From: Chloroflexota bacterium | GTDB lineage: Bacteria > Chloroflexota > Anaerolineae > B4-G1 | Direction of reading: 5' to 3' | DNA: 64,000 bases | Assembly (NCBI GenBank): GCA_012514315.1 | Contig: JAAZAN010000241.1 | Location: 1 to 64,000 of the forward strand | Part shown: piece after piece, positions 31,490-64,000 of the stretch | How positions within the stretch are numbered: position 1 is the first letter of the stretch | Layout of the letters: every line of letters begins with the position of its first letter | Program-made: the position numbers and the translations under genes | Notes under the pieces: generated by a model | The model's database searches: none | What the model was told of the DNA's origin: nothing | What the model saw: only the letters and a program-made list of their open reading frames with translations

Positions 31490-31528
31490 CAGAAAACAGG
31501 CTCGGCTGCTGCAGGCGGCCGAGCCTGT
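31490..31528 (-). terminator. Terminator of the DUF4345 gene (may act both ways)
   Basis: ACAGGCTCGGC (31496-31506) and GCCGAGCCTGT (31518-31528) form a perfect 11-bp stem with an 11-base loop. On the minus strand it is followed by TTTTCT, so it should end leftward transcripts. On the plus strand only CTATGTC follows, so the effect on the LysM gene is weaker. Confidence 0.6.
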
Positions 31529-31629
31529 CTATGTCACAGTCTGTTCGTTGTGGGCAAGGCATGCCGCGGGCGCTCTCTCACCAGGTGCAGCAAGCCTCTC
31601 ACACCGGGCGCAGCGCGTCGAGCGCTCGA

Positions 31630-57705: not shown

Positions 57706-57853
57706 CCTTGCGTACCTAGGTGAACGCAAGCTCTGACCTGACGCACGAACTGCGATGTCGTCGTGGCTTGCTGGTCGTGCGGAGACGTGGCGGCAGCATG
57801 GCGTCCCTATATTCATCGGCACGGTTCTAGTTCAAGCTGCAAGGAGAGACGGG

Positions 57854-58066
57854 GTGAGTGGTATGCGAGAGACAGGGACTGTCAAGTGGTTCAATGCGGG
57901 CAAGGGATATGGGTTCATCGCTCGAGACGGGCAGGACGACGTGTTCGTTCATTACTCGGCCATTGAGGGTGCGGGCTATCGTTCGCTGAACGAGGGTCAG
58001 GCGGTCGAGTTCGAGGTCGAGCAGGGACCCAAAGGTCTGCAGGCAGCCCGCGTCAGGGTAATGTAG
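57854..58066 (+). CDS. Cold-shock domain protein
   Basis: A 70-residue single-stranded nucleic-acid-binding protein of the CspA family. RNP1 is GKGYGFI and RNP2 is DVFVHYSAI, both intact. GTG 57854 is chosen as start because AAGGAG lies 7 bases upstream; an ATG three codons later is also possible. Csp proteins melt RNA structure and help translation in the cold. It is followed 42 bases later by an RRM protein gene, probably in one transcript ended by the terminator at 58451-58490. Confidence 0.93.
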
Positions 58067-58108
58067 CCGCCGGTAGAATTCATTGCGTACATCTAGCAAG
58101 GGAGAGAA

Positions 58109-58417
58109 ATGGGTAAGAAACTGTACGTCGGGAATCTGAGTTACTCGACTACTGAGGGGAGCCTGACGGAACTCTTCGAGGGCATCGGTGAGGTCGCCTC
58201 TGTGAACATCATTATGGACCGTGCGACGGGCCGATCCAAGGGATTCGCGTTTGTGGAGATGGTCAGTGAGAGTGACGTCCGGGAAGCCATCGACCAACTG
58301 AACGGGCAGTCCCTTGACGGGCGTACGATTCGGGTCGATGAAGCCCGTCCGCAGGAGAGGCGCGAGAGTGCGTACGGTGGTGGCGGTGGCGGGAACCGTC
58401 AGCGCAGCCGCTACTAG
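58109..58417 (+). CDS. RRM-domain RNA-binding protein
   Basis: A 102-residue protein with one RNA-recognition motif at residues 3-80. RNP2 is LYVGNL and RNP1 is KGFAFVEM; the aromatic RNA-contact positions are kept. A short tail of Arg and Gly (ESAYGGGGGGNRQRSRY) follows. These single-RRM proteins are common in Cyanobacteria and Chloroflexota and are thought to be cold-inducible RNA chaperones. GGGAGAG precedes the ATG. Confidence 0.93.
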   Translation: MGKKLYVGNLSYSTTEGSLTELFEGIGEVASVNIIMDRATGRSKGFAFVEMVSESDVREAIDQLNGQSLDGRTIRVDEARPQERRESAYGGGGGGNRQRSRY

Positions 58418-60206: not shown

Positions 60207-61079
60207 GTGGCTGTGCGTGAGATCGAGGCAATAGCTCTACTCTCCCCGGTCAAACAGCCCGACCGGTGGTTTGGGCTGCGATACTCGATGAACCTGTACC
60301 GGGGATGCCAGCATCGCTGCATCTACTGCGACTCTCGAAGCTTATGCTATCAGATTGAGGACTTCGACGAAGTCCAGGTCAAAGCGAATGCGATTGATCT
60401 GCTGAGGCGCGAGCTGGCGGCAAAGCGGTCGAAGGGTACCATCGGGACGGGCTCGATGAGTGATCCGTACATGCCAGTCGAGCGCGATCTGATGCTGACC
60501 CAACGCGCGCTGCAGCTGATCGCGGAGTTTGGTTTCCCGCTGCACGTGATGACCAAGAGTGACCTGGTACTGCGGGATCTCGATCTCTTGCGCACGATTG
60601 GGCGAGTCTTCTCATCGGTCACATTCACAATAACTACCGTCGACGATCAACTTGGTAGTGAAGTGGAACCCGGTGCGCCCCTTGTGTCGACACGGTTTGC
60701 GGCGATGGGTAGACTGGCGGCTCACGGGGTCCAAACGGGCGTGGCGATTATGCCGATCTTGCCTTTGCTGGAGGACACGCTGGAGAACGTGGAGGCGATT
60801 CTGCGCACGGCCAGGGATTTCGGCGCAACGTACGCAACCGCTTCATTTGGTGTGACTCTCCGCGATCGCCAGCGCGCGTACTTCCTGGAGCAGCTTGACC
60901 GGTTGTACCCCGGCATGCGAGCAGAGTATGAACGCCGGTATGGCGACCAGTACTTCTGTCCAGCGCGTGGACACCGCTATCTCGAACAGGAGTTTGACGG
61001 TCTCTGCGAGAGCAGAGGTCTGAAGACTGGTGTACCCCATTACCGACCCGAGCGAGCACAACAGCTTCGCCTCCTGTGA
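60207..61079 (+). CDS. Radical SAM protein, SPL/Rv2578c-like
   Basis: A 290-residue radical SAM enzyme. The cluster motif CQHRCIYC has cysteines at residues 34, 38 and 41 in the YRGCQHRCIYCDSR context typical of the spore photoproduct lyase-like/Rv2578c group. GTGSMSDPYMPVE is the SAM-binding Gly-rich segment. The reaction is not known; no DNA-repair partner is nearby. GTG start; the gene lies 51 bases after the DUF692-like gene, so the pair may be a small operon. The C-terminal 60 residues carry a conserved CPARGHRYLEQEF block. Confidence 0.82.
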   Translation: MAVREIEAIALLSPVKQPDRWFGLRYSMNLYRGCQHRCIYCDSRSLCYQIEDFDEVQVKANAIDLLRRELAAKRSKGTIGTGSMSDPYMPVERDLMLTQRALQLIAEFGFPLHVMTKSDLVLRDLDLLRTIGRVFSSVTFTITTVDDQLGSEVEPGAPLVSTRFAAMGRLAAHGVQTGVAIMPILPLLEDTLENVEAILRTARDFGATYATASFGVTLRDRQRAYFLEQLDRLYPGMRAEYERRYGDQYFCPARGHRYLEQEFDGLCESRGLKTGVPHYRPERAQQLRLL

Positions 61080-61118: not shown

Positions 61119-61146
61119 TTGACACGTCGTCCGGTGCTGGTATAAT
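61119..61146 (+). promoter_or_regulatory. Consensus promoter of the ABC exporter leader
   Basis: Perfect TTGACA (61119-61124) and perfect TATAAT (61141-61146), 16 bases apart, the only full-consensus pair in this window. Transcription should start near 61153, about 195 bases before the first exporter gene. Confidence 0.85.
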
Positions 61147-61178
61147 GGCGGCCTATCAATGATTTGTGGGGTGAGCAT

Positions 61179-61235
61179 ATGAGCAGCGTGCGCTTGTTGT
61201 GTGAGACGGAGTTGGGGGGGATGACCTTGTCGTAA
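61179..61235 (+). CDS. Putative 18-residue leader peptide
   Basis: ATG-to-TAA open frame with translation MSSVRLLCETELGGMTLS. GGGGTGAG lies just upstream as a ribosome site. It stands between a consensus promoter and an intrinsic terminator and is placed so that its stop codon abuts the antiterminator strand. Its composition suggests no amino-acid-specific stalling run, so general translation status or a drug is a likelier signal than an amino acid. Too short to be judged by composition alone. Confidence 0.5.
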   Translation: MSSVRLLCETELGGMTLS

Positions 61236-61270
61236 TGCGCCTGCTCTAAGGTGTTCTCAGATATCCCTTG

Positions 61271-61302
61271 GCCGTGGGCGCAAGCCCACGGCTTTCTTTT
61301 TC
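61271..61302 (+). terminator. Intrinsic terminator inside the exporter leader
   Basis: GCCGTGGGC (61271-61279) and GCCCACGGC (61284-61292) form a perfect 9-bp stem with a GCAA tetraloop, followed by TTTCTTTTTC. It lies 46 bases before the exporter start codon, so it acts on the operon's own transcript. Confidence 0.88.
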
Positions 61303-61347
61303 ATCGGCCGGTGTGTTCTGCGGGTCACTCCGGCTCCGGGAGTGATG

Positions 61348-63228
61348 ATGAAGACAACTGTGCTCACTCGTTACTTCGGACTGCTGGCCAACTACCTTAG
61401 GCCTGAACGGTCTGCGACTGTTCTCCTCGGCATTCTAGTTGCCGGCGGCATTGTTACGCAACTGGCTGCGCCTCAGTTGATGGGCCGCTTCATTGACCTG
61501 ATCCAGACGGGCGCCAGTTCATCCGGCCTGATCAGAGTCGCAGTTCTGTTTGTTGTGGCTGCGCTTGCTCGCCAGGCTCTTGCCGCTCTGGCGAACTACG
61601 TGGGGGCGGGAGTGGGGTGGCGTGCAACCAACGCACTGCGGGTGGATCTCCTACACCATTGCCTTAACCTGGATATGGCGTTTCACGCCGCGCATCCCCC
61701 AGGCGAGATGGTGGAACGGATCGACAGCGATGTCAGCCAGCTGGCACAGTTCTTCTCGCAATTCGTCATCCAGGTGCTGGCCAATATGCTTCTCGTGGTA
61801 GGCGTGCTCGGAGTCCTGATCAAGACTGACTGGCGTGCGGGCGCAGCCGTTGCTGTGTTCACGCTGGCCTCGGCGGTTGCAGTAGGTCCGCTCACCCGGG
61901 CCAACGCAACTCTGTGGGCGGATCATCGGGAACGGGTTGCGGATCTGTATGCCTTCCTCCAGGAGAGAATGGCAGGCACGGAGGATATCCAGGCTTGCGG
62001 CGCCAAGGGATACGTCATGCGTCAGTTCCACCGGGTGAACCGTGCTGAGATGAGGCAGCGAGTCAAGGCTGGGGCCATCGGAGCGGCCACGACGCATAAC
62101 GTCACGGAGCTTCTGTTCGCGTTGGGCGTGGCCGGCGCTCTGGCTGCGGGTGCTGCGCTGTACTCGGCAGGTTCGGTGACCATTGGCACCGTGTACATCA
62201 TCTACAGCTACAGTGCGATGCTGGCTGCTCCGATCCGACACCTTACGCGACAGATCCGCGATCTGCAGCGCGCAGGCGGGAGCATCGAGCGCATCCGTGA
62301 GCTGATGCTGAATGATACGCATCTGGAACAGGCGACGGTGGATGATCTACCGGTTCCAGTCTCTGGTCTCATTGGGGTTCCGGAAGGCGAACCACTGAGT
62401 GTGGAGTTCCAGGCTGTATCCTTCCGCTACCCGGATGACGCCCGCGGCATCTTGCCCGACGCTGGCACCGAAGAACACCGCCCTACTCCTGACGGTGGGA
62501 TCGGCCAGCGTGACACTGAGGCTGTGCTCAAGGGCCTCAGCTTTCGTCTGGAGCCGGGCCAGATTCTGGGTTTGCTCGGCAGAACAGGCAGTGGCAAGAC
62601 GACCATCGCGCGCTTGCTCCTCAGACTCTATTCCCCTGACACCGGCGCCATCAGTATATGCGGGCGTGGAGGCCACCCTTCGATGGACATACAAGACATC
62701 CCCCTGGGTGTGCTCAGGTCTAGAATTGGGCTCGTCACTCAGGATGTGCAGGTCTTCCGGGCTACTGTTCGCGACAACCTTACCCTGTTTGATCCGACGG
62801 TGGCCGACGATCGGCTACTCGAAGAGATTGACCAGTTAGGTTTGTGGAGTTGGTACTCATCGTTACCCCAAGGTCTCGACACGCGACTGGAGCCGGGCGG
62901 TCGAGGTCTCTCGGCCGGTGAGGCGCAACTGCTTGCCTTTCTCCGGATTCTGCTACGGGATCCTGGGCTCGTCATCCTTGACGAGGCATCGTCGCGACTC
63001 GACCCGGCGACCGAGCGCCTGATCGAGCGTGCTGTCGATCGGCTGGTTGCCGATCGAACTGCCATCATCATCGCGCACCGACTGAGCACTGTTGCACGTG
63101 CCGATGTCATCATGATTCTTGACGGTGGCATTGTGGTAGAGCAGGGACTCAGAGAGAGGCTGGCCGCGGAGCCTACCTCGCATTTTCGACGCCTGTTGGA
63201 GACCGGTATGGAGGAGGTGCTCCGATGA
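61348..63228 (+). CDS. ABC exporter half-transporter, permease-ATPase fusion (subunit 1)
   Basis: A 626-residue membrane protein of the type I exporter family. Six helices lie at about 15-310, and the ATPase domain is at about 345-620. Walker A GRTGSGKTT near 415, signature LSAGEAQ near 520, Walker B LVILDEASSRLD with the catalytic Glu, and H-loop AHRLST are all intact. An insertion of about 25 residues (DARGILPDAGTEEHRPTP) precedes Walker A. ATG 61348 follows GGGAG; GTG 61342 and ATG 61345 are alternatives. Its stop overlaps the start of a second half-transporter (ATGA), so the two probably form a heterodimer like BmrCD or LmrCD and pump drugs or lipids out. Confidence 0.9.
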   Translation: MKTTVLTRYFGLLANYLRPERSATVLLGILVAGGIVTQLAAPQLMGRFIDLIQTGASSSGLIRVAVLFVVAALARQALAALANYVGAGVGWRATNALRVDLLHHCLNLDMAFHAAHPPGEMVERIDSDVSQLAQFFSQFVIQVLANMLLVVGVLGVLIKTDWRAGAAVAVFTLASAVAVGPLTRANATLWADHRERVADLYAFLQERMAGTEDIQACGAKGYVMRQFHRVNRAEMRQRVKAGAIGAATTHNVTELLFALGVAGALAAGAALYSAGSVTIGTVYIIYSYSAMLAAPIRHLTRQIRDLQRAGGSIERIRELMLNDTHLEQATVDDLPVPVSGLIGVPEGEPLSVEFQAVSFRYPDDARGILPDAGTEEHRPTPDGGIGQRDTEAVLKGLSFRLEPGQILGLLGRTGSGKTTIARLLLRLYSPDTGAISICGRGGHPSMDIQDIPLGVLRSRIGLVTQDVQVFRATVRDNLTLFDPTVADDRLLEEIDQLGLWSWYSSLPQGLDTRLEPGGRGLSAGEAQLLAFLRILLRDPGLVILDEASSRLDPATERLIERAVDRLVADRTAIIIAHRLSTVARADVIMILDGGIVVEQGLRERLAAEPTSHFRRLLETGMEEVLR

Positions 63229-64000
63229 GTGAGCGTGAGCACGCATCGTGTAGTAGACCTCTGCGCAGGAGCGTCTGGTTCTATGTATGGCGTGTCGTGC
63301 GGATGCAGGGCGGGCTGTATGCTCTTATGTTGGCGCTCGAAACACTCATATTCAGTGGGATGCCGCTGGTAACCGGTCTAGCTGTGAGCTGGTTCTTTGA
63401 TGCGCTCAGTGGGTCTGCCCCCGTTGGGGTCAACGTGTGGACGGCCGTTGGACTGATCGCAGCCATCGCTGTTGTGCAGGCCATCATCTTCGCGTGCGAC
63501 TTCGGAGTCTACTTCCTCCATCAGAGCACGGTGACCGGCTTGCTGGCGAGGAACCTCTTCGAGGCCATTCTGGACCAACCTGGAGCGCGAGCGTTGTCCA
63601 TCTCCCCGGGTGACGCGATCAACAGGTTTGAGGTCGACATCTACAAGATCCTGGAGTTTGTAGCAGACGCCCTCAATTTTGTCGTGGAGTTTGGCGTCTT
63701 CGCGGTAGTGTCGGTGGTCCTGATGGTCAGGATCCAGCCCCTGGCCACTGCGGTTGCGTTAGTTCCGCTCGTCTTTATTGTTGTCGCGGTGAACCTGGTT
63801 CGGAGGACCATTCGCGCGTATCAGGAGTCGGCGCGCGGCGCCTCCGGCGCGGTTGCTGGCTTCATCGGCGAGGCCTTCGGGGCGATTCTGGCTGTCAAGG
63901 TGGGCGTTGCGGAAACCCGCGTAGTGCAGAGGTTCCGAGAGCTTGGTGATGCGCGGTGCGCGTATGAACTGCGCGTTGTGCTACTGCGCCAGATCCTTGA
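63225..64000 (+). CDS. ABC exporter half-transporter, subunit 2 (cut by window end)
   Basis: An open frame with ATG 63225, overlapping the previous stop by 4 bases, that runs past the window end. The visible 258 residues are a type I exporter membrane domain with about five helices; segments include WFYVWRVVRMQGGLYALM at the start and the SPGDAINRFEVDIYKILEF coupling-helix region, similar in position to SPGD/E motifs of half-transporters. The ATPase domain is outside the window. It is clearly paralogous in layout to subunit 1 and would be its partner. Confidence 0.88.
   Translation, partial: MSEREHASCSRPLRRSVWFYVWRVVRMQGGLYALMLALETLIFSGMPLVTGLAVSWFFDALSGSAPVGVNVWTAVGLIAAIAVVQAIIFACDFGVYFLHQSTVTGLLARNLFEAILDQPGARALSISPGDAINRFEVDIYKILEFVADALNFVVEFGVFAVVSVVLMVRIQPLATAVALVPLVFIVVAVNLVRRTIRAYQESARGASGAVAGFIGEAFGAILAVKVGVAETRVVQRFRELGDARCAYELRVVLLRQIL

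Follow-up and report, generated by a model that had tools for sequence, protein, structure and literature searches.

The segment at positions 61119 to 61345 of the 64,000-nucleotide window (the whole stretch of Chloroflexota DNA that was analyzed) is very probably a ribosome-mediated transcription attenuator. It is not an isolated case: switches of the same family, which seems not to have been described before, are numerous in this class of Chloroflexota and precede many kinds of antibiotic-resistance-type genes. The 97 leaders analyzed, nearly all from the window's class, have in common, in the main, a promoter, an open reading frame (ORF) led by a Shine-Dalgarno sequence, a conserved motif (motif M), and an intrinsic terminator (T1). 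A first-pass annotation had suggested ribosome-mediated attenuation from the sequence, a reading that is supported by covariation across the 97 leaders, by the match of a covariance model from which the window was left out, and by folds of the nascent RNA.

Anatomy and folding of the window leader

The features of the leader and of the genes behind it are as follows.

61119..61146, plus strand: sigma-70-type promoter, TTGACA (61119), 16 nt, TATAAT (61146), with TG upstream of the -10 box
61169..61235, plus strand: Shine-Dalgarno sequence GGGGTGAG and leader ORF, ATG at 61179, 18 codons, MSSVRLLCETELGGMTLS and stop
61181-61186 and 61190-61193, plus strand: region 1, overlapping the first codons, able to pair with 61237-61246; candidate anti-antiterminator
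61225..61244, plus strand: motif M (region 2), the conserved family signature, CCTTGTCGTAATGCGCCTGC; antiterminator strand at 61236-61244
61246-61251 (CUAAGG) with 61266-61271 (CCUUGG), plus strand: inner helix of the antiterminator in the nascent-RNA fold
61270..61301, plus strand: intrinsic terminator T1, arms 61271-61279 and 61284-61292, loop GCAA, T tract
61274-61282, plus strand: region 3 (T1 5' arm and loop), antiterminator partner of motif M
61342..63228, plus strand: first ABC exporter gene, 628 amino acids, start GTG 61342 or ATG 61345, ABC_membrane and ATPase domains
63225..64000, plus strand: second ABC exporter gene (membrane part), overlapping the first by ATGA

The individual elements named in the first-pass annotation are all present. 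The promoter, described there as full consensus, matches TTGACA/TATAAT at 12 of 12 positions, with 0.3 promoter-like sites expected in the 1 kb scanned. The 18-codon ORF runs from ATG 61179, behind its Shine-Dalgarno sequence, to TAA at 61233-61235, and this stop lies within motif M, which makes the leader "type A"; the bases around the stop read CCTTGTCGTAATGCGCCTG. The 9-bp terminator with GCAA loop and T tract sits between the promoter and the exporter gene; its stem is lengthened by one G-U pair (61270/61293), its tail is TTCTTTTT, and the window leader carries no second terminator. Region 1, GAGCAG-CGU-GCGC (61181-61193), is complementary to GCGCCUGCUC (61237-61246). Two overlapping ABC exporter genes lie 3' of the terminator, the second of which runs past the window end, with the contig stopping 27 nt beyond. 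A hairpin over the exporter's ribosome-binding site, the kind of structure on which erm-type translation attenuation depends, exists at GGGAGTGATG, but it does not stand out from shuffles, 37% of which fold equally well or better. Directly 5' of the attenuator (60207-61079) lies a gene for an Rv2578c-like radical SAM protein, which scores below the curated NCBIfam cut-off, and genes for a cold-shock-like protein and for an RRM-type RNA-binding protein, recognized by eye, stand next to each other at 57755-58417.

The competing helix predicted in the first pass, 61236-61244 with 61274-61282 (UGCGCCUGC with GUGGGCGCA; 9 bp, two of them G-U), was found exactly in the sequence. In RNA ending at 61283, the antiterminator has a probability of 0.78 with no ribosome present, 0.97 with the ORF start region covered, and 0.00 with the stop region covered. 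Once the RNA is complete, folding invariably gives the terminator (P = 1.00), so that the choice between the two must be kinetic, as in known attenuators. The mutual exclusivity of terminator and antiterminator, likewise claimed at first pass, is borne out by the nascent fold in the window and by covariation in 76 non-redundant leaders. Pairing of region 1 with M has a probability of 0.10 in nascent RNA without a ribosome and 0.60 in the full-length fold; the former value, set against the 0.78 of the antiterminator, makes control by region 1 uncertain in the window. Among the 97 leaders the window has the 14th weakest M:T1 helix, and the z-score of the whole-leader fold (-1.48) is uninformative and would have overlooked the switch.

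A family of leaders sharing motif M

The search for relatives started from homologs of the exporter, with about 66 upstream regions checked for a promoter and a terminator. Both were present in only three of these besides the window (G044 and G016:C197, from the same order as the window, and the more distant G404), a count on which conservation at orthologous exporters only was rejected. That so few exporter orthologs have a leader indicates that leaders travel with gene type and not with orthology. An exporter scan of genome contigs returned one useful relative, in which the leader is absent. An exporter homolog (L125/L165, G404:C940) has its own promoter and a strong terminator in its leader, where motif M was not seen; this is possibly an unrelated attenuator.

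When the DNA of relatives in the order was searched with the window leader, the exact 18-mer CTTGTCGTAATGCGCCTG turned up before two ABC-F genes. The pattern TGTCGYARTGCGYCTS gave 36 matches in 396 genomes of the class versus about 15 for the reversed control; within the order of the window the counts were 15 versus 1. Leaders built in the same way account for most of the order's matches and for some of the others, the remainder being chance or coding matches. A first covariance model built from 27 leaders found many more in the class, gene identity not being used in the family search. A second model, built from 70 leaders with the window excluded, recognizes the window leader (61225-61301) with a score of 58.5 bits (E = 5e-14 in 64 kb). 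Its other match in the window, at 31490-31585 on the minus strand, is weak (21 bits) and was rejected as a family leader, being an ordinary terminator between genes. In a sample of 400 genomes from the phylum, 36 matched at E <= 1e-6, 31 of them from the same class; of the other five, the two that were inspected are complete leaders. L322 and L323 (G407 and G419) are complete M leaders in genomes from another class of the phylum.

A promoter matching at least 10 of 12 positions lies upstream of 74% of the family leaders, compared with 0.8% in shuffles. A second terminator (T2) is present in 79 of the 97, and its 5' arm is complementary to the 3' arm of T1. Generic genome terminators were ruled out as the origin of the similarity between T1 and T2 by the rarity of the pattern GGCCGTGGG-N3-14-CCCACGGCC, which has 4 sites in six genomes: three known leaders and a fourth site at G039:C151. 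Nothing in Rfam reaches its gathering score for the window leader, nor for 10 family loci. The first-pass statement that no such case is known in Chloroflexota agrees with the literature searched, which held no paper on such leaders in this phylum; subscription journals fell mostly outside that coverage, and absence from it is not proof.

The pairing of M with T1 covaries. In 76 non-redundant leaders (grouped by shared words, not by a tree), the M:T1 duplex has an energy of -19.5 kcal/mol with its own partner versus -17.4 kcal/mol with swapped partners (z = -7.7; 0 of 5,000 permutations). With T2 of these leaders as the control partner the effect disappears (z = -1.3), and in 55 of 62 leaders M pairs better with T1 than with T2. 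Position 9 of M, a pyrimidine, tracks T1, with C accompanying TGCG in 17 leaders, T accompanying TAC in 13, and two exceptions (Fisher p = 3e-7, from counts without phylogenetic correction). Compensatory changes are seen between GTCGCAG/CTGCGAC (G093) and GTCGTAG/CTACGAC (G054), and further examples are ATTGC with GCAAT (G266 and G336) and GTAGTG.GTCTG with CAGAC.CACTAC (G330). Family-wide, M also pairs better with the ribosome-binding and start segment of its own leader than with those of other leaders (z = -5.2; 0 of 5,000), the pairing segment of region 1 lying at a median of -11 to +17 around the start codon; this pairing is only modestly above dinucleotide shuffles (mean z = -0.85).

Reading frames, proposed mechanism, and rival explanations

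An ORF led by a Shine-Dalgarno sequence runs into M in 50 of 74 leaders, versus 3.6% with shuffled upstream DNA, and the stops favor two places. In 64 of the 97 leaders M is read in the RSAP frame (...RSAPxxR and stop), with the stop mostly 21 nt past the M core; 20 others, the window among them, have their stop codon inside M, with the same frame and stop position; 8 use the third frame or are ambiguous. Third codon positions of M are almost as fixed as first and second ones, and the peptides upstream of M vary widely. Since the nucleotides of M stay constant across frames, M is kept mainly as RNA. Read from the sequences, the family has in common that a ribosome finishing the ORF would come to sit over M, and the leader peptide is probably not the sensor. 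The covariation test that the first-pass annotation had proposed for the ORF, its stop position, and the two helices gave a positive answer across the 97 leaders, with M read in other frames elsewhere. An overlapping mini-ORF, MRLL and stop (TAATG, 61235-61249), was rejected as a macrolide-sensing MRL peptide because its ATG occurs only in a few TAAT variants. L164, L163, and L160 (G016:C197, G044:C171, and G016:C34) carry an extra, well-started short ORF far upstream (e.g., M..DS.SRH and stop); this subgroup has M in the third frame, and one of its leaders precedes a SpoU/TrmH-type rRNA methylase. In L258, L269, and L314 the leader ORF begins right after the -10 box and may be translated leaderless.

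Upon the anatomy, the family, the pairings and their covariation, the frame behavior, and the gene association rests a model in which we infer leader translation, stalling, the direction of the response, and a drug as the signal. Three RNA segments would compete, namely, region 1 (the leader ribosome-binding site and first codons), region 2 (M), and region 3 (the T1 5' arm and loop). During normal translation a ribosome at the stop within M would cover M, T1 would form, and the exporter would be off. If, instead, an initiating or early-elongating ribosome were held at the ORF start, as an antibiotic might do, it would cover region 1, leaving M free to pair with region 3 before T1 folds, and RNA polymerase would continue through to the exporter genes. 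When no ribosome is present, M may be held by region 1, which would favor termination.

The preservation of M as RNA across frames is also what a binding site would display, and a trans-acting RNA-binding protein or small RNA that binds M and controls antitermination, with the leader ORF secondary, would account for it. Such a factor is improbable, given that M covaries with its T1 partner and is not fixed in sequence at every position, that ORFs led by a Shine-Dalgarno sequence enter M much more often than chance predicts and end at favored places, and that M has a pairing partner in region 1 at the ORF start. A conserved RNA motif preceding a terminator might equally suggest a small-molecule riboswitch with a ligand-binding aptamer folded in the leader, but this is extremely unlikely: there is no conserved aptamer fold beyond T1 and no Rfam match, M coincides in part with the ORF and is single-stranded in the OFF state, and the genes are too varied for any single metabolite.

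The prevalence of the RSAP frame and its preferred stop would fit a leader peptide that is itself the sensor, with a nascent chain such as ...RSAPxxR arresting a drug-bound ribosome in the manner of ErmCL or MsrDL. However, the window and 19 other leaders stop within M and never encode RSAP, the near fixation of third codon positions in M and the high variability of the upstream peptides speak for RNA, and a ribosome arrested on M would mask the antiterminator, all of which makes peptide sensing quite improbable.

In a tentative reading, which we consider rather less than even in its chances, a portable RNA module without a dedicated protein regulator would join ABC-F, exporter, acetyltransferase, HAD hydrolase, and rRNA methylase genes in a class-wide translation-stress regulon; in the usual form of the module, with two terminators, M would open T1 and the freed 3' arm of T1 would then open T2. 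Matched pairing of the T1 3' arm with the T2 5' arm has a z-score of -9.2, but the arms paired reciprocally do just as well (p = 0.19), so this domino pairing is not distinguished from two similar hairpins.

Downstream genes and known attenuators

The first downstream ORFs of 91 leaders were typed, some of them picked automatically and a few possibly wrong. An ABC ATPase domain (DrrA-like or ABC-F) occurs in 35 and an ABC exporter membrane domain in 15, and GNAT acetyltransferases account for at least 24; there are also seven HAD hydrolases, two MFS pumps, one SpoU rRNA methylase, and one RIO kinase. The downstream types are mostly transport, ribosome-protection, or acetyltransferase genes.

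The mechanism class is known; novelty, as far as checked, lies in the motif family, in its use in several frames, and in the variety of the genes. The parallel drawn at first pass to bmrB-bmrCD of Bacillus subtilis holds for the mechanism class, with a leader peptide, a terminator, an antiterminator, and an anti-antiterminator (a candidate one in the window) before a two-gene ABC exporter (PMC4191407). In bmrB, however, the terminator lies within a 53-codon ORF (PMC4191407), whereas in the window it lies past the stop codon, and the M family has a motif common to almost 100 leaders. Mechanistically closer is vmlR, an ABC-F gene of B. subtilis, where antibiotic-held ribosomes at the upstream ORF (uORF) prevent the anti-antiterminator (PMC9226507). 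The antiterminator and the intrinsic terminator are shared, and its anti-antiterminator at the uORF has a candidate counterpart in the window; vmlR is induced by antibiotics that hold initiating ribosomes and tolerates changes in its uORF peptide (PMC9226507). Peculiar to vmlR are a tripeptide uORF, a single gene, a hairpin sequestering the ribosome-binding site, and NusG pausing (PMC9226507), whereas in M leaders the ORFs mostly have 13 to 35 codons and finish in the common motif, the genes come from many families, and there are usually two tandem terminators. The toiL-topAI uORF of Escherichia coli responds in a general way to ribosome-targeting antibiotics of several classes, as the M leaders may do, but it controls translation with Rho (PMC12121999), in contrast to the intrinsic terminators that would be controlled in the M family. 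With trp-type amino acid attenuators the leaders share the proposed competition of regions 1:2, 2:3, and 3:4, which ribosome position would decide; unlike these, the window ORF MSSVRLLCETELGGMTLS lacks a run of regulatory codons, and the M-family genes are not biosynthetic.

Anaerolineae-type Chloroflexota are mostly known from metagenomes, and no described regulator of this kind was found for their drug responses in the literature searched. A motif before almost 100 genes provides a direct list of candidate translation-stress genes, with possible resistance factors among the uncharacterized acetyltransferases and HAD proteins that it includes. As the same nucleotides are read in different frames, conservation at the RNA level is separated unusually cleanly from that at the peptide level, which makes the family a good test case for the evolution of generic antibiotic sensing by ribosome position. 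Family-level covariation can also resolve an ordinary-looking terminator and short ORF in a metagenome contig. The window's genome contains a second family leader (L254; G000:C100:15846-17924, minus strand), with the ORF MRMMLAVVFANRLSDPDMAGSLSSRSAHGMR and stop, before a HAD-hydrolase gene.
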